Origin: Anaerolineales bacterium
Lineage (GTDB): Bacteria; Chloroflexota; Anaerolineae; Anaerolineales; Villigracilaceae
NCBI GenBank assembly: GCA_016934715.1
Contig: JAFGSI010000036.1
Span: 1 to 62,972, forward strand
Direction: 5' to 3'
Length of the DNA stretch: 62,972 bases
Shown here piece by piece: positions 5,567-50,722 of the stretch (its first letter is position 1; each line of letters starts with the position of its first letter). Made by a program: the position numbers and the translations under genes. Below the pieces are notes generated by a model. The model was not told where the DNA came from. It searched no databases and worked only from the letters and a program-made list of their open reading frames with translations.

Positions 5567-8533
5567 CTAGCGCAACAGCTCCTCCGCCTTGGTGTAAGAG
5601 TCGAGGGCTTCCTGCAAGCGGTTGGCCCGCATGTAGGCGTCTCCGAGGGTCTGCCAGACAATCACATCAACCGGGAAGCGGTAGATCGCTTCGCGCAGGT
5701 CATAGATGACTTCATCCAGCAGGCGGCCTCTCTTGATCAGCCTGGCATACTCTTCCATCGCCAGGGCAAGATCACCGCGCTCAAGTGTCGTTTGCGCCCC
5801 GGCCAGGGTGTCCGATTCCTTATCCTGTTGGGGGACCCGGGCAAGTTCACCAACCGCTCGGGATGGAGGCGGCGCTGGAGCAGTGTCGGGTGCTGGTGGT
5901 CCAGGTTGTGCCGAGGTTGGTGCAGACCTAACTCCTTCAGATGCAGCGGCCGGAACCCATTCGCTGGCTTCCGTCGGAGTTGCACCAGGCTCCACCGGAG
6001 CAGTCTCATCCAGCATCCAGGAGGGTAATTCCTCTTCGTCCGCTTTGCCCTGTGGAATGGCTGCCGCGGGCTCAGCGATGGGCGGCTTGCGCACGGTCTC
6101 CGTCTGCCGCCCGGGGGGAAGTCCCGGTTCCCCGGCTGTCAACTCAGTTGGCAGCGCGGCATCCTCCACTTTGGGGGCCCCCTCCGCTGCTGGCAGATTG
6201 GCCGCCATGTCCTGGCGCAGCCATTCGGGCAGGCTTTCGGCCTCTGCCGGGGGTGCCGTCCCGGCCTCATCGGTCGGCCGCTCCAGGCCGCGCAGCCATT
6301 CGGGCAGTTCTTCCTCGGCAGCCGGAGTTACGTCCTCCTGCCCAAGATCAGGCAGGATAGAAGCCGATTCGACCGTTTGCGCGGTCGGCGCAGGCTCCCG
6401 CTCATCGGCCACGGCCAGTTTTTCCAGCCAGGAGGTCAGCGAGACGTCTTCCGCGACTGCGGGTGCCTCGACCTCTGGCAGATCGGGAAACGCCTCTTCG
6501 AGTGACGGCCCGGGCGCGGCCTCGACCGGAGGCGGCCCCGCTGGCCCAGGTTGGTCCTCGGCCTCGGCTGCCAGGCGCTGGACCGATTCGGGGGTCCCGT
6601 CGCCGCGATCTTCCGGTTTGGTCAGCAGTTCCTCTGCCTTGGCCCCCTGCTTGGCCGCCAGGCCCTCCAGCCAGGCCATGGTATCGTCCTCGATCCCCAG
6701 CGGCTGGGCAGGGCCGGTCGGCCCCAGAGGTACATCCTCGTCAAGCAGATCGGCTGCTTGAGCAGCAGGTACAGGCAACGGCTCTTCCGGTTGGGCGGAG
6801 GGCGACAGACCAGGGGCCATCGCCCCTGACAGACGCTGGACCGATTCGGGGGTCTCGTCGCCGCGATCTTCCGGTTTGGTCAGCAATTCTTCAGGCTTGG
6901 CCCCCTGCTTGGCCGCCAGGCTTTCCAGCCAGGCCATGGCGTCATCTTCGATCCCCAGAGGCCTGGAAGGACCGGTTGGCCCCAGCGGGGCAGCATCATC
7001 CATCATGGAATCGTCTTGTCGGGGGGATCGCTGAGAATCGTCCAAAACAGGTTCCTCCTTCGGCCACGCCGCCTGCGCGGCAGGTTGCGCTGGACCCGGG
7101 TCTGCGGAGCCGATCTGCTGCAGCCAATCCGGCAATTCCTCCGCCGGAGCCGCCTCCGGGGCGGGCTGGTCTGCCGCGGGCAGACCCAGAGAACCCAGCA
7201 GGTTCGACAGGCCTTCGTCGGGAACGGTCACAGCGCGTTCAGGAGCAGATGCAGCGACCTCGGTCTGCGGCTGCCCGGTTCCGGTCGCCTCCCCGGCAGG
7301 CTCGTCGAGCGAGCCCAGCCAATCAGGCAGGCCTTCACCCAACGGCGTGGATTCATCTGATTCGGAGACCTGCGGGGTGCCCGGAGAAGGTGTGGCCCCT
7401 TCATCCAGGGCCGCGGCCGGAGCCATGGCCTTCAACCAGTCGGGGATCTCCGCCTGAGCAATCGGGCCTTCGGCTGCCGATTCCGGCTCGTCAAAGGCGA
7501 CCGGGGTCTCCTCAGCTGCCCCCGCCGAGGGCTGCCAACCAGCCGAGCGCATCCAGTCCGGAATCTCGCCTTCTGCGGCCGGCGCCGCCGCTTCAGAGAC
7601 AGCGGCCTCCGACTGGGAGAGCTCGGGGGTGGATCCCGGCTCGCCGGCAGCCTGGCCGGTCATCCAGTCGGGAGGCGCATTTTCCTGATGCGCATCTTCC
7701 AGCTTGATGCCCAGCGAGGCCGCCCAGTCAGACTGGGGCCCGGCCGCCGGCAAGGCAGATGGATTGTACTCCAGGCGTTCAAGGTTGATCGCTGCGTCGG
7801 CGACCTGATCACTCTCAAAGACCGATCCGGTGACGAATGATGAGTACGGATCGAGCATGCGCAGGCGCTGGCGGTAAACCTGGGTGTTCTCAGCGCGCGC
7901 CGTCCCCGGCAGGACTTCCACCAGGATACGCAGGGCGTCCATGCAATAGGAATACCGGTTTAGCAGGTGATTGGCCAGTTCGGCCGCCTCGACCTTTTGC
8001 CCACTTCTGAAATAGGCACGCGCCAGCATGACTTCCAGGTCGGGACGCTGAGGTTCCTCGGCCAGGACAGCCCGGATCTCGGCGACTGATTGGTTGAACA
8101 ATTCGCCTTGCGAATACATGTTGGCCAACGCATCGCGGCTCAGGCGGATCTTGGGCGGCTCAACGCCGTCCCGGCGGCCGTACAGGCGGCGCAATTCCCC
8201 CTGGATGGCCGGGTTGGACGGCTGGACCGCAAAAGCCCGCTCCATGTGCCAGATGGCCTCGTCCAGCTTGCCCTCGTCATCGCGAATGATGCTCATCCCG
8301 ACGTGGGCAACGAAATCATCCGGGACAGCCATCAGGACTCGCCGGAAGATATCAGTCGCATCGCCATAACGACGGGCTTCCAGGAAGGCCTTCCCCAGAA
8401 GTCGATACGTCTCAACGTGCATCGAGAATGTCTTCAGGATATTCATGCATTGGGCAATGGCCTCATCCACTTGCCCACCTTCGATCATGCTCTCGATTTC
8501 ACGGTTGTATACACGCAGGGACACTTTAGCCAT
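5567..8533 (-). CDS. Large TPR protein with a Trp-motif-rich disordered middle
   Basis: The ATG at 8533 (MAKVSLRVYN) follows AGGAG and gives 988 residues; an earlier in-frame ATG at 8581 lies upstream of the likely transcription start. The first ~270 residues are TPR-like helices (for example MNILKTFSMHVETYRLLGKA and ATDIFRRVLMAVPDDF). The middle, roughly 280-860, is rich in Pro, Ala, Glu and Gly, with about eleven short motifs of the type ELPDWL, EIPDWM, LPEWLRGL or MAWLESL. The end returns to TPR helices (DVIVWQTLGDAYMRANRLQE). No signal peptide or membrane span is visible. Motif repetition suggests a cytoplasmic scaffold in which each Trp motif docks onto a TPR groove of the same or another protein. 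The function is unknown. Confidence 0.85.
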   Translation of the reverse strand: MAKVSLRVYNREIESMIEGGQVDEAIAQCMNILKTFSMHVETYRLLGKAFLEARRYGDATDIFRRVLMAVPDDFVAHVGMSIIRDDEGKLDEAIWHMERAFAVQPSNPAIQGELRRLYGRRDGVEPPKIRLSRDALANMYSQGELFNQSVAEIRAVLAEEPQRPDLEVMLARAYFRSGQKVEAAELANHLLNRYSYCMDALRILVEVLPGTARAENTQVYRQRLRMLDPYSSFVTGSVFESDQVADAAINLERLEYNPSALPAAGPQSDWAASLGIKLEDAHQENAPPDWMTGQAAGEPGSTPELSQSEAAVSEAAAPAAEGEIPDWMRSAGWQPSAGAAEETPVAFDEPESAAEGPIAQAEIPDWLKAMAPAAALDEGATPSPGTPQVSESDESTPLGEGLPDWLGSLDEPAGEATGTGQPQTEVAASAPERAVTVPDEGLSNLLGSLGLPAADQPAPEAAPAEELPDWLQQIGSADPGPAQPAAQAAWPKEEPVLDDSQRSPRQDDSMMDDAAPLGPTGPSRPLGIEDDAMAWLESLAAKQGAKPEELLTKPEDRGDETPESVQRLSGAMAPGLSPSAQPEEPLPVPAAQAADLLDEDVPLGPTGPAQPLGIEDDTMAWLEGLAAKQGAKAEELLTKPEDRGDGTPESVQRLAAEAEDQPGPAGPPPVEAAPGPSLEEAFPDLPEVEAPAVAEDVSLTSWLEKLAVADEREPAPTAQTVESASILPDLGQEDVTPAAEEELPEWLRGLERPTDEAGTAPPAEAESLPEWLRQDMAANLPAAEGAPKVEDAALPTELTAGEPGLPPGRQTETVRKPPIAEPAAAIPQGKADEEELPSWMLDETAPVEPGATPTEASEWVPAAASEGVRSAPTSAQPGPPAPDTAPAPPPSRAVGELARVPQQDKESDTLAGAQTTLERGDLALAMEEYARLIKRGRLLDEVIYDLREAIYRFPVDVIVWQTLGDAYMRANRLQEALDSYTKAEELLR
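6576..6985. repeat. Two in-register 152-bp direct repeats inside the TPR gene
   Basis: Copy one (6576-6727) and copy two (6834-6985) are nearly identical DNA 258 bp apart, an exact codon multiple. They encode IEDDxMAWLExLAAKQGAK, then EELLTKPEDRGD and TPESVQRL. Their high identity points to recent duplication within the gene and a possible site of copy-number change. Confidence 0.8.
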
Positions 8534-41872: not shown

Positions 41873-42106
41873 ATGGAAAATTACATCACCTGTCCCAGCT
41901 GCAAGAAGACCATTGCCAATCATGAATTGATCGAGGCCGCGGCAAAGAAAGAAAATCTCGGGTCGAGTTTCCTGGTCTGCGATTGCGGTGAAAGAATCAC
42001 CTTCTGGGCCATCACGGCCCAACTGAGAGGTCAGAAAACACTCGGTGCGAAGATCAAGGATTGGTTGAGCGGAGCCTCCAAGAAGAGAACCCAGGATCAG
42101 AAATAG
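41873..42106 (+). CDS. Small zinc-ribbon protein
   Basis: The ATG at 41873 follows AAGGA and gives 77 residues. CPSCKKT (near residue 7) and VCDCGERITF (near residue 35) form a C-x2-C and C-x-C pair typical of a zinc ribbon. The C-terminal third is basic (KIKDWLSGASKKRTQDQK), which could contact nucleic acid. No similarity to a named family is evident. It is isolated, with a promoter-like gap before it. Confidence 0.65.
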   Translation: MENYITCPSCKKTIANHELIEAAAKKENLGSSFLVCDCGERITFWAITAQLRGQKTLGAKIKDWLSGASKKRTQDQK

Positions 42107-42202: not shown

Positions 42203-43552
42203 TCAGCGTACCCGCGTCCAGCGGGGCGCGGAGTGCGGGGCGGGTTTTTTTCCGTAGAACAGGTCGTCCATCCACCTGGCCAGGCGGCGGAAGAAGCCCG
42301 AACGAGCGATCCCGTAGCGGATCAGGTCGTGGAATGGACCGGTCGGGTGAGCATATGGGCAGACGGACAGGCAGCGGGCACAGTCGGTCCCGATGATATT
42401 CCAGTAGTGAAAACAGGCGTCCGAATCGATCCGCCAACGCAAGGCCCCATCGATTTCCTCCCGCTGCCCGTCGGGAATGGCATCCGCCGGGCAGCACTCG
42501 GCACACTTCCTGCAGATCGTACAGAAATCGAGCAGCGCGGGATCGGGCCTGCGCCCATCCGGGACAAGCGCCGCCTCGGTGGTCACGACCGCGATCCGAA
42601 CCCGCGGCCCGTGGCGGGGTGTCATCAGCAGGCCCATCCGGCCGAGTTCGCCCAGGCCGGCATCGCGTCCGACCAGCGGGGCGATGACCCGGTAGTGGCC
42701 GTCAATGTGCGCCCGGGCCGGATGACCGAGGGCCCGCAGCGCCGCAGCCAGCTGCACGGCGATCCGGGCCGCCTCGACATACTGGCGGGCCGACTCCATC
42801 ACCGTCGCCGCCCCAGGAGCCGCGGCGACCATGGCGTGCTCCATCTCGACCGTCAGGGCGATGGCGTAGCGGTATTCGCCTTCGATCGGTTGACCCCATG
42901 TCCCCTTCCCGCGTCCGACATGCGAATAGACATGATAAGGCTGTGTCTCGGCCACCCCGACCTCCAGGGCGCCGTAGTAGCGGGCCAGGTCCTTGCTGTA
43001 GGCGGTCATCTGTTCCGGGTCGAGCGTGGACTGCTTTTCCGCCACCGGGCCGTCAACCGCCGGGTGCAGAGCTTCGGTCAGGAAAAATGAGGCCTCCGGC
43101 GAAGCGAACAGATCCGGGTCGGCGAAGCGTGCATCCGGTGCCAGCAGGCCGGGCAGAGCCCGGAAGGCATCGTCCCTGGCCCGGTTCTCGGGGCGCATCC
43201 GGTAGTAGGCTTCGAACTCCGGGCTGCCCTGCCTGAGGCGGTCCCGGGCAAACATCGTGTCGCGCTCGTCAAAGCGGGTTTTGGGCACCTCATCCCCGGG
43301 GTCCATACGGCCAAGCGGCAGGAAGTACAATCCCAAGAAAACCACGGCAACCAGGAAGAAGACCGACAACAACGCCGCCTGGAAGGGTTCGGGGAGGGTC
43401 AGGGCGCCGAAGAAAGGCAGGCTGCCCAGGACAGCGACCAGCGCCACCCTGCTCGCCCGGCGTTCCCCCTCCAGAACCAGCGTCCGCCAGAAGGCCAGGA
43501 ACATGCCGGCGATCAGCAAAGCAATGCAGAAAAGCAGGCACTCGGTGGACAT
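42203..43552 (-). CDS. Membrane-anchored reductive-dehalogenase-like iron-sulfur protein
   Basis: A 449-residue protein with three N-terminal membrane helices (about residues 4-22, 34-53, 58-80) and a soluble half. AGLGELGRMGLLMTP with HGPRVRIAVVTTEAAL matches the core of corrinoid reductive dehalogenases. Two iron-sulfur motifs follow: CTICRKCAECCP from Cys344 and, after C-x10, CARCLSVCPYAHP at about Cys391. These motifs predict two [4Fe-4S] clusters beside a B12 site. No Tat signal exists; the membrane helices replace the Tat leader and the separate RdhB anchor. A QueG-like epoxyqueuosine reductase is less likely because of the membrane part. It follows the HELSH protein by 6 nt. Confidence 0.78.
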   Translation of the reverse strand: MSTECLLFCIALLIAGMFLAFWRTLVLEGERRASRVALVAVLGSLPFFGALTLPEPFQAALLSVFFLVAVVFLGLYFLPLGRMDPGDEVPKTRFDERDTMFARDRLRQGSPEFEAYYRMRPENRARDDAFRALPGLLAPDARFADPDLFASPEASFFLTEALHPAVDGPVAEKQSTLDPEQMTAYSKDLARYYGALEVGVAETQPYHVYSHVGRGKGTWGQPIEGEYRYAIALTVEMEHAMVAAAPGAATVMESARQYVEAARIAVQLAAALRALGHPARAHIDGHYRVIAPLVGRDAGLGELGRMGLLMTPRHGPRVRIAVVTTEAALVPDGRRPDPALLDFCTICRKCAECCPADAIPDGQREEIDGALRWRIDSDACFHYWNIIGTDCARCLSVCPYAHPTGPFHDLIRYGIARSGFFRRLARWMDDLFYGKKPAPHSAPRWTRVR

Positions 43553-43558
43553 GTGGCC

Positions 43559-44320
43559 TCATTCCCCCACATCCAGGCCGGTCAGGCCGGTCAGGATACG
43601 GTGCAGCAGGGCGAACGGCAGAAGCAGCAACAGGTGGAACCCGGCGCTCAGGCCAAAGATGACCGCCAGGGCCTCAAGGAAGGTGTTGATCGGCGGCGCC
43701 AGGTTGGCCAGCATCCACGGGCCCGCGCCGGCCAGCACCGCCAGGACCAACAGCACCCCGACCCCGATTCCAATCGGAGACCAGGCGTGGCGGTCGGAGG
43801 CCGAGGGCAGCATTGTGCTGCTGACCGTGAAGGTCAGGTAGAACCAGATCCAGAAATTGGGCAGCGTCGGCAAAATGCCGAATCCTCTCCAGAACAATTC
43901 CCAATAGCCGGCCCGGATAAAATCCCACAGCGTCGACAAGTGCAGGTGGACCGTGGCAACGTAGGCCACAAACAGGGACCCGCTGATCAAAGGGGCGATC
44001 CCAACCAGGGCGTCGCGCCACACGCCGCCCGAGACCATCTCGACGTACCCCAGCACCAGCCGGCCTTCCGGGGTGGCCTGTGGAATCAATGAAAATCCAC
44101 GCGTCTTCATGCCAAGCAGTTTCGCCATGACAAAGTGACTGAGTTCGTGCAGCACCACCCCTGGGAAGAAGAGCAGGGCAAACATGACCTGGGTCATACC
44201 GGGACGGCGGGTCAGGAGCAGGAAGGTGATCTGGATCTCGCGGTGCAGCAGCCGCTGCAGGAAGATCAGCGGCACAAGCATCAGCACCAGCCAGAAGAGA
44301 CCATCAAAGGCTGCCAGCAT
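43559..44320 (-). CDS. Integral-membrane HExxH protein (M50-like metalloprotease candidate)
   Basis: A 253-residue membrane protein with five to six helices. VVLHELSHFVMAKLLGMKTR carries the zinc motif HELSH with the following FVMAKLLG, as in membrane-embedded M50 (site-2) proteases. A typical second motif (NxxPxxxxDG) is not evident; PLISGSL and NLAPPINTFLEA are the closest blocks, so activity is uncertain. The start at 44320 has no good ribosome-binding site and lies just past the tpiA terminator. It is the first gene of a pair with the dehalogenase-like protein, which suggests that it matures, regulates or partners that protein. Confidence 0.7.
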   Translation of the reverse strand: MLAAFDGLFWLVLMLVPLIFLQRLLHREIQITFLLLTRRPGMTQVMFALLFFPGVVLHELSHFVMAKLLGMKTRGFSLIPQATPEGRLVLGYVEMVSGGVWRDALVGIAPLISGSLFVAYVATVHLHLSTLWDFIRAGYWELFWRGFGILPTLPNFWIWFYLTFTVSSTMLPSASDRHAWSPIGIGVGVLLVLAVLAGAGPWMLANLAPPINTFLEALAVIFGLSAGFHLLLLLPFALLHRILTGLTGLDVGE

Positions 44321-44338
44321 CGGGTTGGGGGAGGAAAA

Positions 44339-44372
44339 ACGCAGACGACAAACCGGGGTCTGTCGTCTGCGT
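44339..44372 (-). terminator. Intrinsic terminator of tpiA
   Basis: Positions 44339-44350 (ACGCAGACGACA) pair perfectly with 44361-44372 over a 10-nt loop. On the minus strand a five-T run follows (44338-44334). It lies 15 nt past the tpiA stop and 14 nt before the start of the HELSH gene. Confidence 0.85.
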
Positions 44373-44386
44373 CTGCAGGTTGGGGA

Positions 44387-45145
44387 CTAGCCCGCCGCCG
44401 CCCGGGCGATGGCGGAGAACTCATCCAGTTTCAAACTTGCCCCGCCGACCAGGGCGCCATCGATGTCGGGCTGGGAAAAGAACTCGACAGCGTTGCCGGC
44501 GGTCACCGATCCGCCGTACAGCACCCGGATCGACTGAGCAGCCTCAGTGCCGTACAGGTCTGCCAGGGCCGGCCGGATGACGTCGGCCACAACGGCATTG
44601 GCATTCTCGCCCGACGAGGCCCGCCCGGTGCCGATCGCCCAGACCGGTTCATAGGCGACAACGATCTTGGAAACGAACTCGGCTGGTTGGCCTTGCAGGC
44701 CTTCACGCACCTGGCGCCCAACGACCTCGGCCGTCAGACCAGCTTCGTACTGATCGAGGGTTTCGCCAACACACACGATCGGGATCAGGCCGGCGATTCG
44801 GGCGGCATCGAGCCTCCTGTTGACCGACTCGTCGGTCTCGCCGAAGTAAGCCCGGCGCTCAGAGTGCCCAATGATGACATATTGGCAGAACTCAGCCACC
44901 ATTCCAGGTGCGACCTCGCCGGTGTAAGCGCCCTTCTCTTCCCAGAACAGGTTCTGAGCACCCAGGCCAATCTCGCTGCCCTGCAAGAGGGCCGAAACCG
45001 GGAACAACGCCATGTACGGCGGGCAGAGCACTTTTTCCACACCCTGCACTTCCCGCAGGGACTTGACCATCTCTGAGACCAGTGTGCGCGCCTCGGCGAC
45101 AGTTTTATTCATTTTCCAGTTGCCAGCAACGAAAGGTGTTCGCAT
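44387..45145 (-). CDS. tpiA: Triosephosphate isomerase
   Basis: A 252-residue glycolytic enzyme that interconverts dihydroxyacetone phosphate and glyceraldehyde 3-phosphate. Lys in GNWKMN, the catalytic His in IGHSERR and the Glu in AYEPVWAIGTG are present, and the phosphate loop GALVGGASL closes the protein. Length is normal. It is the last gene of the glycolytic run and 9 nt after a Ser/Thr kinase gene. Confidence 0.97.
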   Translation of the reverse strand: MRTPFVAGNWKMNKTVAEARTLVSEMVKSLREVQGVEKVLCPPYMALFPVSALLQGSEIGLGAQNLFWEEKGAYTGEVAPGMVAEFCQYVIIGHSERRAYFGETDESVNRRLDAARIAGLIPIVCVGETLDQYEAGLTAEVVGRQVREGLQGQPAEFVSKIVVAYEPVWAIGTGRASSGENANAVVADVIRPALADLYGTEAAQSIRVLYGGSVTAGNAVEFFSQPDIDGALVGGASLKLDEFSAIARAAAG

Positions 45146-45154
45146 GATATTTTC

Positions 45155-46966
45155 CTAGGGGAGAAGTGTGAGAATGTATTCCGCTTCGAGGCGCATCCAC
45201 TCATCCAGACCTGGATTTCCCATCAGGGCATCGATCGCCCGACGGGCTTCGCCTGGCTGCTGCGGCTCCGCCATGGCATGGAATTCAGCCTGCAGCAGGA
45301 GCGTTTCGGGCATCCCCGGCTTGACAGTGTTCAACTCTTCCAGCAAGGTCCAGGCCTGCTCGTGGTCGCCAGAATAGAACAGATAGCGTGTTTGGGCAAC
45401 GTAAGCCATGGCCTCGTCGACATAGGCGATATCATCGGCCTCGAAATAGTCGGGAGACACAGGATCCTTGGCGGCCTTGTAGATCACCTCATGAAGCAAG
45501 GTGCGCATATCAGGAGGAATGTCTTCTTCATCGTCGATCATCAGGGTGCCCGCATCGACACACATCCGGGCGGCCATCAGCCATTCCTGGCGTTCGGCCA
45601 GCTGCCTGCAGGCATCCCAGAAAAAGGCCGGGTCTTCGCTGACCTCCTGGGCACTCGACAAGGCCTGGTGGGCCTCCTCGGTCCTGTCCAGATCCAGGTT
45701 TGCATGGGCAAGCTGCAAATACGCGTTGGGATCGTCAGGGTTCGCCTCGATCCGCTCGAGAGCCTGTTCCACAGCTTCCGGAGGCACATCCCTGTCGGGC
45801 AATTCGGCTGTCGCCAGTACGGCCGGGCTGTTGTCCCGTGCTTCGACCAGCAGATCTGCACTGTCGCGCAAACGATTGCCGCGGAAGGCCAGGAAGGTGA
45901 AAGTGCAGCACAGGAAGGCTATGACCGCGATCGCTATCCACATCCAGGGGATCCTGCGTTTCGGCCGGACAACGGTGGCATCCGCCGCCGCGACCGGGAT
46001 CGGGGTCGAATCCACCGCCAGCTGGCCGACCGGGGTCGGGGTCGGGGTCGGAGCCCGCATGCTCTCGGGCGGGATGGTCGCCGCTTCAGGGGAGGCGGCC
46101 ACGGGGAAGGTTGCGGTTTTGGCCGGATCCGGAGGCGTCGAACCTGCCCAGGCCTGCTGAAAGGCTTCCACCATCACCGCAACATCTGGGTAACGATCGG
46201 CCCGTTCCTTGGCAAGCGCCTTGAGCAGCACCCGTTCGATGTCAGGGGCGACGGTCAGATTGACCGCCCTCGGCATCGGCAAGGGAGTATAAATATGATC
46301 GTGGATGATCGAGAACGGCGTGTCGGCACTGAAGGGAACCTTACCGACCACAAGTTCGTAGAGCATGACACCGAACGAGTAGATATCTGTGCCTTCGTCG
46401 AGGTCCTTCTTGCCCATCGCCTGTTCGGGCGAGATATACTGCGGGGTACCGACGATCATGTCGGAGGTCAGGGTAGACTCGCCCGCCTGGGCGATGCGCG
46501 CCAGGCCGAAATCTGCCAGGTAAATATCGCCAGTTGCGGAGATCAGGACGTTGGATGGCTTGATGTCGCGATGAAGAATGCCGTGCTTGTGGGCATACGC
46601 CAGCGCCTTGCCGACCGCCGCGACCATCGCGACGACTTCAGGTGACGTAAGTGGGCCGCGCCCCAGGCGCGCCTTGAGGGTCTCGCCCTCGATGAACTTC
46701 ATCACCAGGTAGGGACGTCCTTCGTGCTCGGCGTAGTCATAGATCGGGACGATATTGGGATGGTCGAGCCTGGCCACCAGCTTGGCTTCGCGCTGAAAGC
46801 GCGCCAGGAAGTTGGGATCTTCCATGAAAGCCGGGTGGAGCACCTTGAGGGCCACATAGCGATCGAGGGCTGCATGATAGGCCTTGAAGACCGTCGCCAT
46901 GCCGCCATGGCCAAGTTGCTCCACGATGCGATACGGGCCGACCGTCTCTCCGACGGTGAATGACAT
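45155..46966 (-). CDS. Transmembrane Ser/Thr protein kinase with TPR-like tail, inside the glycolytic operon
   Basis: A 603-residue Hanks-type kinase. The glycine loop is LGHGGMATVF, the ATP Lys is Lys41 (VALKVL), the catalytic loop is HRDIKPSN and the magnesium loop LADFGLAR, so the kinase looks active. Residues ~1-270 form the kinase, then a Pro/Thr-rich linker (TPTPTPVG), a membrane span (WMWIAIAVIAFLCC near 345) and an outer part of about 240 residues with TPR-like helices (YLQLAHANLDLDRTEEAHQA). The TPRs probably read an extracellular or envelope signal. The gene lies between pgk and tpiA on the same strand, 9 nt from tpiA. Confidence 0.9.
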   Translation of the reverse strand: MSFTVGETVGPYRIVEQLGHGGMATVFKAYHAALDRYVALKVLHPAFMEDPNFLARFQREAKLVARLDHPNIVPIYDYAEHEGRPYLVMKFIEGETLKARLGRGPLTSPEVVAMVAAVGKALAYAHKHGILHRDIKPSNVLISATGDIYLADFGLARIAQAGESTLTSDMIVGTPQYISPEQAMGKKDLDEGTDIYSFGVMLYELVVGKVPFSADTPFSIIHDHIYTPLPMPRAVNLTVAPDIERVLLKALAKERADRYPDVAVMVEAFQQAWAGSTPPDPAKTATFPVAASPEAATIPPESMRAPTPTPTPVGQLAVDSTPIPVAAADATVVRPKRRIPWMWIAIAVIAFLCCTFTFLAFRGNRLRDSADLLVEARDNSPAVLATAELPDRDVPPEAVEQALERIEANPDDPNAYLQLAHANLDLDRTEEAHQALSSAQEVSEDPAFFWDACRQLAERQEWLMAARMCVDAGTLMIDDEEDIPPDMRTLLHEVIYKAAKDPVSPDYFEADDIAYVDEAMAYVAQTRYLFYSGDHEQAWTLLEELNTVKPGMPETLLLQAEFHAMAEPQQPGEARRAIDALMGNPGLDEWMRLEAEYILTLLP

Positions 46967-46998
46967 TGGCGTCCCTTCCTTTCAACCCCTTTCCCCGC

Positions 46999-47029
46999 CC
47001 CCTTCCCATTTCCACGAGGGGGGAAGGGG
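46999..47029 (-). other. Intercistronic GC hairpin between pgk and the kinase gene
   Basis: CCCCTTCCC (46999-47007) pairs with GGGAAGGGG (47021-47029) over a 13-nt loop. No T run follows on the minus strand. It could slow or partly terminate transcription before the kinase gene or stabilise an mRNA end. Confidence 0.45.
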
Positions 47030-47056
47030 AGCAGGCGAAGGGAAGAGGGATTATGC

Positions 47057-48232
47057 TTACTTATCGTTCAAAGCTGCCACGCCAGGTAGCTCCTTGCCTT
47101 CCAGGAACTCGAGCGAGGCCCCGCCGCCGGTGGAGACATGGGTCATCTGCTTGGCAACGCCGGCCTTCTTCACTGCGCTGGCACTGTCGCCGCCACCGAT
47201 GACCGTCGTCGCATCGGACTCGGCCAGCAACCGGGCAAGTGCGAAGGTCCCCTCAGCAAACTTTGGCATTTCGAAGACACCCACCGGGCCATTCCAGACG
47301 ACCAGCCTGGCCCCGCTGAGGGCCTGCCTGTACAGCGCCAGCGTCTTGGGACCGACGTCGAGCATCCGCCAGCCGGCCGGTATCTGGTCTACATCCACCA
47401 CCTGTGAATCGGCTTCGGCCTCGAACTTATCGGCGATGACGGCATCCACGGGCAGGATGAGCTTGTCAGCCTGCCGGGAAAGGATTTCCCTGGCCGTTTC
47501 GAGAGAAGCTTCCTCGACCAGGCTGTCCTGCATGTCAACCCCCCTGGCAGCCAGGAAGGTATTGGCCATACCCCCGCCGACGATCAGGCGATCGCACCTC
47601 GCAAGCAGATTTTCGACCAGCAGGATCTTGTCGCTGATCTTGGCGCCGCCCAGAATGGCAATGTATGGATGCTCCGGGTTGGCAGTGGCGCGCCCCAGGT
47701 ATTCGAGCTCTTTTTCCATCAGGAAACCAGAGACAGCCGGCAGGTAACGGGCTACACCCTCGGTCGAGGAGTGGGCCCGGTGGGCCGAGCCAAAGGCATC
47801 GTTGACGTAGATGTCGCCCAGGGCAGCCATCTGCCTGGCCAGGTCAGGATCATTCTTCTCCTCGCCAGCATGGAAGCGGGTATTCTCGAGCATCAGCACA
47901 TCGCCCGGCTTGAGGGCCGCGGCCAGTTTCTCGACCTCGGGTCCGATGCAATCCGGCGCCATCTGGACCGGCCGGTCCAGATGGCCGGACAGGACCTCGG
48001 AGGCCGCCTTCAAGCTGAAGACAGGATCCGGCCCACCCTTGGGGCGGCCGAGGTGACTCATCAAGATCAGGGAGGCGCCCTGCTCGAGAACGTACTGGAT
48101 GGTTGGCAAGGCCGCCTTGATGCGCTTGTCGTCGGTTACTTTTCCGGTCTCGTCCATCGGGACGTTGAAGTCCACGCGCATCAGGACGCGCTTGCCCTGC
48201 AGATCAATGTCGCGAACGGTTTTCTTGTTCAT
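47057..48232 (-). CDS. pgk: Phosphoglycerate kinase
   Basis: A 391-residue glycolytic enzyme that makes ATP from 1,3-bisphosphoglycerate. The start ([14 protein letters not shown]) binds 3-phosphoglycerate, SHLGRPKG follows, and the nucleotide site is near [15 protein letters not shown] and GGGDSASAV. Length is normal. A hairpin with a TTCG loop lies between gap and pgk. It is followed by the kinase gene after about 90 nt. Confidence 0.97.
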
Positions 48233-48245
48233 GGTTGCACCGAGA

Positions 48246-48273
48246 CCCTGTGAAGGCCGAAGCCTTCACAGGG
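48246..48273 (-). other. gap-pgk intercistronic hairpin with a TTCG tetraloop
   Basis: Positions 48246-48257 (CCCTGTGAAGGC) and 48262-48273 form a perfect 12-bp stem. Read on the minus strand, the loop is C-TTCG-G, an unusually stable tetraloop. No T run follows, and the ribosome-binding region of pgk is just downstream. It probably protects or processes mRNA between the two genes rather than ending it. Confidence 0.7.
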
Positions 48274-48286
48274 TTGGGTTCGAAGA

Positions 48287-49345
<1,059 letters not shown>

Positions 49346-49369
49346 TACAAACCTCCTGAAAGAATGATG

Positions 49370-50722
49370 TCAACGCGGTTGCGTTGCAGAGTCTTTGTCC
49401 AGCGGACCCGTTCGTTCATAGAACAGGTCCATCACGACCTGGGCAAGTTTGGCAGAGTCGTGCCGCCAGGGATGCGCACGGTCAATGAGGTCTGCAGCAT
49501 AAACCCGCCCATCCTCGACCAGGCCATCGTCCAACTGCACCCATTGTACACCAACTCCAAGATTTCCCTCATAACACGAGTTGCACACCAGGATATCCAC
49601 AACGTCAGGTCCGATCGCATCCTCGAGCGCCCGGACGTGATCACTGCAGGTATACTCGCTCGTCTCGCCGGTCTGGGTGGCGATGTTGCAGACGTAGATC
49701 TTTACCGCCCGGCTGGCACGGATGGCAGCCAGCAGGTCCTGAACCAGGACGTTGGGCAGAATGCTGGTATACAGGCTCCCGGGTCCAATGATGATCACGT
49801 CGGCAGCCAGGATGGCCTGGACGACCGGCGGAAAGGCCGGGGCGTTGTTCGGTTCCAGCCAGACCCGCCGCACACGCCCGGATGTCTTCGGAATGGCGCT
49901 CTCGCCTTCGATCCGGACCTCGGCCTGGGCTTGTGGCAGATGGACGTCGGCTACCAGCCTGACATTGTGCAGGGTCGCCGGGAGCACGCGTCCGTGTACA
50001 GAGAGGACCCGGCCCGATTCGGCCACCGCCTCCTCGAAGCTCCCGGTGATATCCACGAGCGCCGAGATGAACAGGTTGCCGAAAGAGTGTCCGCCCAGGC
50101 CAGTATCCTGTCCAAAGCGGTACTGGAACAGCTGGGTCAACAGGGTTTCGTCATCCGACAGCGCTGCCAGGCAGTTGCGAATGTCACCGGGCGGCAGGAT
50201 CCCCAGGCTGCGGCGGAGTTCTCCGGAGGAGCCTCCGTCATCTGCCACCGAGACGACTGCCGTCAGGTTGCGGGTATGGGCCTTCAGACCACGCAGTACT
50301 GTGGCCAGCCCGTGCCCGCCGCCGATGGTGACGATACGCGGCCCGCGCTCACGCCGCCGGTAATCGCTCACCTGGTCGACCAGCCGCTGGCCCGGGCGCA
50401 GGAAGGGGATCAAAAGCGACCGACTCATCCCCCACAGCCCGGCCAGGATCAACCCCACCCCCAGACCGCCAAAGATGAGCACTCGTAACGGCCGGGTCAG
50501 GAAGCGCAGTGACAGGAAGGAGAGCAACGGCAGCCACCAGGTCTCGGGGGCAGTCCGATAGATGTCCAACAGGAATATCGCCAGGCCAATCCCGATCAGG
50601 GTGATCCCCGCCAGGAAAACGGCCACCCAGCGCTTGATCCCCAATCCCGGGACAAACCAGCGCAAAGAACGGAGCAATCCGTGCCAGAGACGTGCCCACC
50701 AGGTTTGACGCCCTTTTAACAT
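49370..50722 (-). CDS. yvcK: YvcK/CofD-like gluconeogenesis factor with N-terminal membrane segments
   Basis: A 450-residue protein. Two or three hydrophobic N-terminal segments (for example WVAVFLAGITLIGIGLAIFL and VLIFGGLGVGLILAGLW) precede the YvcK core from about residue 125: VTIGGGHGLATVLRGLK, VSVADDGGSSGELR, GDIRNCLAAL and FGNLFISAL. YvcK proteins bind UDP-sugars and affect carbon flow and cell shape. The membrane anchor adds to the usual ~320 residues. It leads the glycolytic run. The promoter (TTGACT-17-TATCAT) puts the start at +1, so the mRNA is probably leaderless. Confidence 0.9.
   Translation of the reverse strand: MLKGRQTWWARLWHGLLRSLRWFVPGLGIKRWVAVFLAGITLIGIGLAIFLLDIYRTAPETWWLPLLSFLSLRFLTRPLRVLIFGGLGVGLILAGLWGMSRSLLIPFLRPGQRLVDQVSDYRRRERGPRIVTIGGGHGLATVLRGLKAHTRNLTAVVSVADDGGSSGELRRSLGILPPGDIRNCLAALSDDETLLTQLFQYRFGQDTGLGGHSFGNLFISALVDITGSFEEAVAESGRVLSVHGRVLPATLHNVRLVADVHLPQAQAEVRIEGESAIPKTSGRVRRVWLEPNNAPAFPPVVQAILAADVIIIGPGSLYTSILPNVLVQDLLAAIRASRAVKIYVCNIATQTGETSEYTCSDHVRALEDAIGPDVVDILVCNSCYEGNLGVGVQWVQLDDGLVEDGRVYAADLIDRAHPWRHDSAKLAQVVMDLFYERTGPLDKDSATQPR

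Follow-up and report, generated by a model that had tools for sequence, protein, structure and literature searches.

Respiratory reductive dehalogenases (RDases) carry a Tat signal and are paired with a separate RdhB protein. One described representative is the PceA2B2 complex of D. hafniense, which is reported to be a menaquinol:organohalide oxidoreductase and whose membrane part has an ExE motif (E61 and E63) between the transmembrane helices TMH2 and TMH3, on the outer side (PMC10624902). The same source describes NpRdhA as NADPH-linked. A different architecture, first sighted in 2018 (Jochum 2018, PMC6129605), was described as that of 'hybrid putative RDases' with N-terminal transmembrane helices (Atashgahi 2019, PMC6797604); by our count the table given there holds 69 hybrids, of which three belong to Chloroflexi. 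The likeness of the helices to RdhB and the presence of the ExE motif have also been published (PMC6797604, PMC10624902). TMHMM predictions in the 2019 study called many members exoplasmic, and the topology of the group was mixed (PMC6797604). The hybrids are mentioned or cited in PMC10624902, PMC12090745, PMC9303371 and PMC12908670, in passages that show no function for them.

We analyzed a stretch of 62,972 nucleotides (the window) from the genome of an Anaerolineales bacterium (4.09 Mb, 88 contigs, 97.8% complete). The original prediction was of a reductive-dehalogenase-like protein built onto three membrane helices. Its reading frame lies exactly at 42203-43552 on the minus strand, and the dehalogenase core named there, AGLGELGRMGLLMTP, corresponds to residues 298-312 (Table 1). 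The gene is the last of seven co-directed genes (42203-50722, minus strand), which are in order yvcK-like (49370-50722), gapA, pgk, a Ser/Thr kinase gene, tpiA, an M50-like gene and the hybrid gene. The M50-like neighbor is context and has no shown link to the hybrid. On the downstream side, a 77-aa ORF and then an acyl-CoA-synthetase-type gene lie on the opposite strand. The 77-aa ORF (window 41873-42106, plus strand) has zinc-ribbon-like cysteines (CPSC...CDC) and ends about 100 bp from the 3' end of the hybrid gene. No rdhB was found among the window ORFs on either side of the gene, and terminator-like sites around it were not in excess (6 compared with 7.3 in shuffles).

Table 1. Features of the hybrid gene and its nearest neighbor, in window coordinates.
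Feature	Position	Strand	Basis
Hybrid putative RDase gene, 449 aa, ATG start	42203..43552	-	ORF list, RDH HMM, fold
Membrane helix 1, residues 3-27, matches RdhB TMH2	43472..43546	-	model, hydropathy, hhalign
ExExRA motif EGERRA, residues 28-33, loop between helices 1 and 2	43454..43471	-	alignment
Membrane helix 2, residues 31-52, matches RdhB TMH3	43397..43462	-	hydropathy, model, hhalign
Membrane helix 3, residues 55-76, outside the RdhB match	43325..43390	-	hydropathy, model; hhalign match ends at residue 50
RDase-type catalytic domain, residues 85-449	42206..43300	-	VIA-align range to 8q4h
Y258, aligned with SmPceA Y246 (proton transfer)	42779..42781	-	alignment; Y in 80/81 and 16/16
D284, at the SmPceA N272 position	42701..42703	-	alignment; 16/16 pattern-free hybrids
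R319, aligned with SmPceA R305 / DhPceA R396	42596..42598	-	alignment
[4Fe-4S] motif 1, residues 344-355, C344-x2-C347-x2-C350-x3-C354-P	42488..42523	-	sequence, alignment
[4Fe-4S] motif 2, residues 380-399, C380...C391-x2-C394-x3-C398-P	42356..42415	-	sequence, alignment
C-terminal helices, residues 402-433, with H402, H408, R412, D429, Y433	42254..42349	-	alignment to DhPceA
Weakly M50-peptidase-like gene, 253 aa, co-directed	43559..44320	-	ends 6 bp upstream of hybrid

Two exact peptide patterns yielded 215 homologous loci, of which the best 80 serve for comparison here. Because the loci were found in this way, invariance within residues 252-259 and 279-286 is partly due to selection; conservation was recounted on 16 full-length hybrids found without the patterns, which include the window protein and others that are also in alignment A2. 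For the homologues, start codons were set by a script. L054, whose chosen start left it without helices, and L003 and L005 (copies of L039 and L075) were left out before alignment A2, and L128 and L129 contained no RdhA ORF at 1e-6.

The window protein matches the NCBIfam RDH model TIGR02486 with an E value of 2.7e-37 (129.3 bits, below the curated cut-off of 160.35). Given this match and homologues with 42-57% identity across the whole length (alignment A2), its resemblance to RDases is more than chance. A PDB search with a profile of four members retrieved NpRdhA (7.1e-47), SmPceA (4.6e-43), DhPceA (1.7e-36) and QueG (3.9e-4), and the RDH HMM matched all 81 aligned hybrids (best E 1e-52). 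An AlphaFold2 model built from 81 homologues (pLDDT 95.7, pTM 0.92) replaced an earlier one from four sequences (pLDDT 53.4). The original prediction had proposed comparing the fold with PceA, NpRdhA and QueG, and in VIA-align the model was much closer to the RDases: Z scores were 33.6 for DhPceA (8q4h; 348 residues, 2.7 A), 33.5 for NpRdhA (4ras) and 32.7 for SmPceA, compared with 15.3 for QueG.

In a quick IQ-TREE analysis of 139 rows, one branch separates the 81 hybrids from all other rows (SH-aLRT 84) and another separates 24 QueG-like rows (SH-aLRT 81); these 24 are low-scoring matches of which only L002 was typed. Hybrids that were met again (L136, L141 and L142) and copies (L006-L008) were left out beforehand. 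When the tree is rooted on the QueG-like rows, soluble and Tat-type RDases form one group (95), and the hybrids stand beside it, not inside. Measured from 15 random hybrids, soluble group a lies at a median tree path of 2.21 and soluble group b at 3.27, whereas Tat-type RdhA lie at 3.71 and the QueG-like rows at 4.41. The order of the groups is provisional because the search was short and several branches are long.

These results bear on the possibility that the protein is of QueG type, or another corrinoid protein unrelated to RDases. The QueG model TIGR00276 does match it (1.8e-6; 27.2 bits against a curated cut-off of 200), as it matches all 81 aligned hybrids, with E values down to 2.8e-12, and QueG shares the common core fold. 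Against this stand the Z score of less than half that for DhPceA, the separate position of the QueG-like rows in the tree, and the host genome itself, where the only match besides the one full-length hybrid is a separate QueG-like gene (under the QueG cut-off). The QueG-like rows also have no aligned counterpart of Y258 and have other letters at positions 284, 319 and 412, and QueG is without the ExE hairpin. We therefore consider this explanation very improbable. A plain ferredoxin or QueG-type identity was rejected on HMM scores, fold Z and tree. The catalytic half thus groups with RdhA in the HMM scores, the sequence search of the PDB, the fold comparison and the tree, as originally predicted; it clusters with neither QueG-type nor ferredoxin proteins, and its pocket residues are not missing outright.

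Soluble relatives form the other point of comparison. NpRdhA is like the hybrid in fold, in being cytoplasmic and in having no Tat signal, but is without membrane helices and has no His/Arg at positions 408 and 412. The soluble Tat-less RDase-like cousins L132-L134 and L139 share 35-39% identity and the same middle domain, and neither they nor L176-L184 have membrane helices. This soluble group is commoner than the hybrids among the weaker matches of the class genomes. Within the middle domain common to hybrids, L132 and L134 have a FDERD..FAR motif.

Both predicted [4Fe-4S] motifs are present in the catalytic half (CxxCxxCxxxCP and CxxCxxxCP), and all eight cysteines are kept in 81/81 aligned hybrids. 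In the alignment with SmPceA, residues Y246, N272, R305, W376 and Y382 correspond to Y258, D284, R319, W384 and D390, and the latter five are kept in 16/16 pattern-free hybrids. Y246 and R305 are described as important in SmPceA (PMC10624902). The nine soluble cousins L176-L184 have Y, Leu/Met, R and W at the first four of these positions, then Ala (eight) or Asp (one) at 390; Asp at 390 also occurs in three more distant rows (L185, L186 and L188). N272, W376 and Y382 are active-site positions of SmPceA as well. The hybrids have Asp where the SmPceA active site has Asn (N272) and Tyr (Y382), and these acidic residues suggest a substrate more polar than a chloroethene.

The original prediction of a cobalamin pocket stands in part. 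The RDase fold and the catalytic residues Y258 and R319 are kept, but several corrin contacts are not. Six polar contacts are given for DhPceA, namely N68, H395, K399, N454, H461 and S479 (PMC10624902). Four of them (H395, K399, H461 and S479) align with V318, V322, R374 and A392 in the window protein and are not kept; N454 belongs to an insertion, and the alignment does not reach N68. The predicted pocket therefore rests on the fold and the catalytic residues. With regard to corrinoid supply, the host genome has a cobalamin riboswitch (61.3 bits, G000:C40:16704-16845; L155 ~6705-6846) directly upstream of a BtuF-like gene, which is grouped with a BtuC-like gene and a haem/corrinoid-type ATPase gene, all three being matches under their cut-offs. 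CobS and the CobA/CobO/BtuR family (Pfam PF02654 and PF02572) were not found in the host genome. The host probably imports B12.

The N-terminus has three hydrophobic segments by hydropathy (residues 3-21, 36-54 and 60-78), which the model renders as helices 3-27, 31-52 (with a break at 44) and 55-76. No Tat motif was found in the window protein, either by pattern or by eye. With three segments, no Tat and no rdhB neighbor, the helices do take the place of a Tat leader and a separate RdhB, as had been proposed from the sequence. In the loop between the first two helices, E28 and A33 are kept in 81/81 aligned hybrids and E30 in 72/81, and 67/81 have the full ExEx[RK]A motif. When a profile built from the 84 N-terminal residues of the hybrids was compared with RdhB using hhalign, residues 4-50 matched RdhB residues 29-75, which span TMH2, the ExE loop and TMH3 (probability 92, score 35.8, E 6.7e-7 for a single comparison). 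When the 14 loop columns were shuffled 20 times, the score was at most 16.4. By this profile match, helix 1, the loop and helix 2 are homologous to TMH2-ExE-TMH3 of RdhB, and helix 3 is additional. This register was not found in our literature search of openly licensed PMC papers. Three loci with Tat-type rdhA genes encode an adjacent RdhB-like protein of 72-75 aa (L113 5457-5681, minus strand; L115 5055-5273, plus strand; L117 229-456, minus strand); these proteins have only two hydrophobic segments flanking a loop of the E[LF]EPRAA type, as if RdhB had been cut down to the ExE hairpin.

The charges around the helices are informative about the side of the membrane. Across the 81 hybrids, lysines and arginines average 3.28 within the ExE loop and 3.07 over the 18 columns that follow helix 3, compared with 0.02 for the N-terminal tail and 0.57 for loop 2. 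In 80/81 hybrids the ExE loop has more of them than the tail and loop 2 combined, and in one the numbers are equal. The 16 pattern-free full-length hybrids have 2-6 in the ExE loop and 0-2 in loop 2, the ExE loop being larger in 16/16 (N-terminal tails uncounted). In contrast, 12 RdhB-like proteins, nine of which were picked by a pattern favoring acidic pairs and nine of which have ExE, show 0-2 in the ExE loop and 1-4 in the flanking stretches. Positively charged loops face the cytoplasm (the positive-inside rule), so the hybrids would be oriented inwards, the reverse of RdhB. Since the chain crosses the membrane an odd number of times, the ExE loop and the catalytic domain share one side, and the charge bias thus suggests that both are cytoplasmic, opposite to PceAB. 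This reading conflicts with the exoplasmic TMHMM calls in Atashgahi 2019 (PMC6797604), and both are predictions.

The same evidence has to be weighed against a respiratory RDase with its catalytic domain outside, that is an RdhB-RdhA fusion in the PceAB orientation with an unspecified export route. The hairpin is homologous to that of RdhB, whose loop lies on the P-side, many members have exoplasmic TMHMM calls, and fused RDases are expected to resemble PceA2B2 (PMC10624902). However, the charge bias is reversed in all but one of the aligned hybrids and there is no Tat motif. For Tat to guide the third helix, a [K/R]R pair should lie close to the preceding loop, and such a pair occurs near loop 2 in only 2/81 hybrids. 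An outward-facing enzyme is therefore unlikely in our view.

As to the electron donor, the menaquinone-pocket residues given for DhPceA are K489, H495, R499, D515 and Y520, some of which are also kept in organisms without quinones (PMC10624902). They align with H402, H408, R412, D429 and a position near Y433. H402, H408, R412 and D429 are present in 81/81 aligned hybrids; in the pattern-free set, the last three are found in 16/16 and H402 in 15/16. Because H408 and D429 also occur in 9/9 soluble cousins (L176-L184), they give no support for a quinone. Position 412 is basic in 18/22 Tat-type RdhA and in 1/12 soluble rows (one of the 12 is gapped there), Arg in all hybrids, and Ala or Ser in 9/9 soluble cousins. 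In these alignments it is the only pocket position that follows membrane attachment. The search for a host quinone covered the MqnA family, MenD and the UbiA family. No MqnA-family gene (PF02621) was found in the host genome, the MenD model (TIGR00173) reached 56.5 bits against a cut-off of 244.2, and among six UbiA-family matches the one typed is heme o synthase. The genome being 97.8% complete, with no MqnA family and no MenD above cut-off, the host quinone is unaccounted for. CydA is present on another contig. Of the earlier suggestion that electrons come from the quinone pool, the fit of the C-terminal residues stands, but the donor claim is weakened by the lack of a detected menaquinone pathway in the host.

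This lack would be explained if the protein were an RDase on the cytoplasmic face that takes its electrons from ferredoxin or NAD(P)H partners, with helices that merely anchor it and a halogenated substrate that it degrades or detoxifies. The nearest tree rows by path are indeed soluble, Tat-less types, and the NADPH-linked NpRdhA is almost as close in fold as DhPceA. An inert anchor, however, would have no need of the ExE hairpin or of the invariant E28 and R412, and by eye no ferredoxin or reductase gene recurs among the 25 largest neighbor clusters listed. On balance we think such a soluble-donor enzyme improbable, and we keep quinol as the preferred donor.

Full-length hybrids occur in 4/61 close genomes, including that of the window, and both congeners are without one. 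Across the class they occur in 16/396 genomes, with a lowest score of 546.8 bits; non-hybrids score from 327.2 bits down. Two pieces in G635 (333.4 and 109.1 bits) resemble one gene split over contig ends, and a short piece at a contig end in G661 (155.9 bits) is unplaced. The hybrid gene is thus patchy and accessory. We clustered 643 neighboring proteins from 81 loci (80 fetched plus the window) and listed the 25 clusters with most loci, among which there is no universal gene partner. The largest (14 loci) is ABC-transporter-like by eye and lies at mixed distances. The window's M50-like gene is absent from these 25 clusters, all of which have four loci or more, and its yvcK-gapA-pgk-kinase-tpiA-M50 setting was not met among the listed clusters of the homologous loci. 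In five Chloroflexota loci (L048, L063, L068, L070 and L071; 64/80 loci have at least 1.5 kb downstream) cydA and cydB lie 64-483 bp downstream of the hybrid gene in the same orientation; in L048 the pair was identified by Pfam. L065 has 1.5 kb downstream and no cydA, while L052 and L062 end too soon to tell. Because the five hybrids are 64-73% identical and have further neighbors in common, the adjacency may be a single inherited arrangement.

Taken together, the window protein is a member of the published group of hybrid putative RDases, and its design is not new. It resembles the hybrids of Atashgahi 2019 in length, the three N-terminal helices, the ExE motif between helices 1 and 2, both FeS motifs, and the absence of Tat and rdhB. 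It is also homologous to them and separates with them in the tree, and no feature excludes it, although topology is uniform in our analysis and mixed in theirs. The best 80 of 215 confirmed relatives include Marinifilum fragile JCM 15579, M. breve JC075 and Marinimicrobia 46_43, whose names match that table (by organism name, not accession). The Tat signal and separate RdhB of respiratory RdhA are lacking, whereas the fold with catalytic Tyr and Arg is that of an RDase in the wide sense, with a predicted corrinoid and putative dehalogenation. Compared with PceA2B2 of D. hafniense, it is alike in fold, Tyr/Arg pair, H495/R499/D515 positions and ExE hairpin, but is one chain without Tat, with a third helix after the hairpin, an inverted charge pattern and His in place of K489. 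Dehalogenase activity of the hybrids is putative. New here, by computation only, are the register in which the anchor aligns with RdhB, a topology that points inwards throughout, a residue that tracks membrane attachment and a subgroup located beside cydAB.

Comparison shows that the protein folds like an RDase, keeps the two FeS motifs together with the catalytic Tyr/Arg pair, and has an N-terminal hairpin homologous to that of RdhB. Helix 3 would place the catalytic domain and the ExE loop on one side of the membrane and rebuild a PceA-PceB-like interface within one chain. From the charge bias, the catalytic face would be in the cytoplasm, and so no Tat export would be needed. Electrons would pass from a membrane quinol to the distal cluster, the proximal cluster and then the corrinoid, which would reduce the substrate on the cytoplasmic side. 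Fumarate reductase, in which quinol feeds a reduction on the cytoplasmic side, offers a parallel. If energy is conserved at all, this would happen upstream and not in the hybrid enzyme itself. We give a probability of about 0.55 to this reading as a whole, that is, a hybrid putative RDase with an in-chain RdhB-type anchor acting as a cytoplasm-facing, quinol-fed reductase with a corrinoid and two [4Fe-4S] clusters. More tentatively, and with considerable doubt, the hybrids may form a class of cytoplasm-facing, quinol-driven corrinoid reductases, inverted relative to PceAB, whose substrate is polar and may carry no halogen and which in some Chloroflexota work beside cytochrome bd; they would use B12 in a fumarate-reductase-like way and not for organohalide respiration.

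Whether hybrid RDases dehalogenate, and on which side of the membrane, was asked in 2019 (PMC6797604). Our comparisons make both questions testable through one predicted topology, the residues E28, R412, D284 and D390, and the cydAB subgroup. If the proposed reading is true, a quinol-coupled, cytoplasm-facing corrinoid enzyme would widen the known uses of B12 chemistry.
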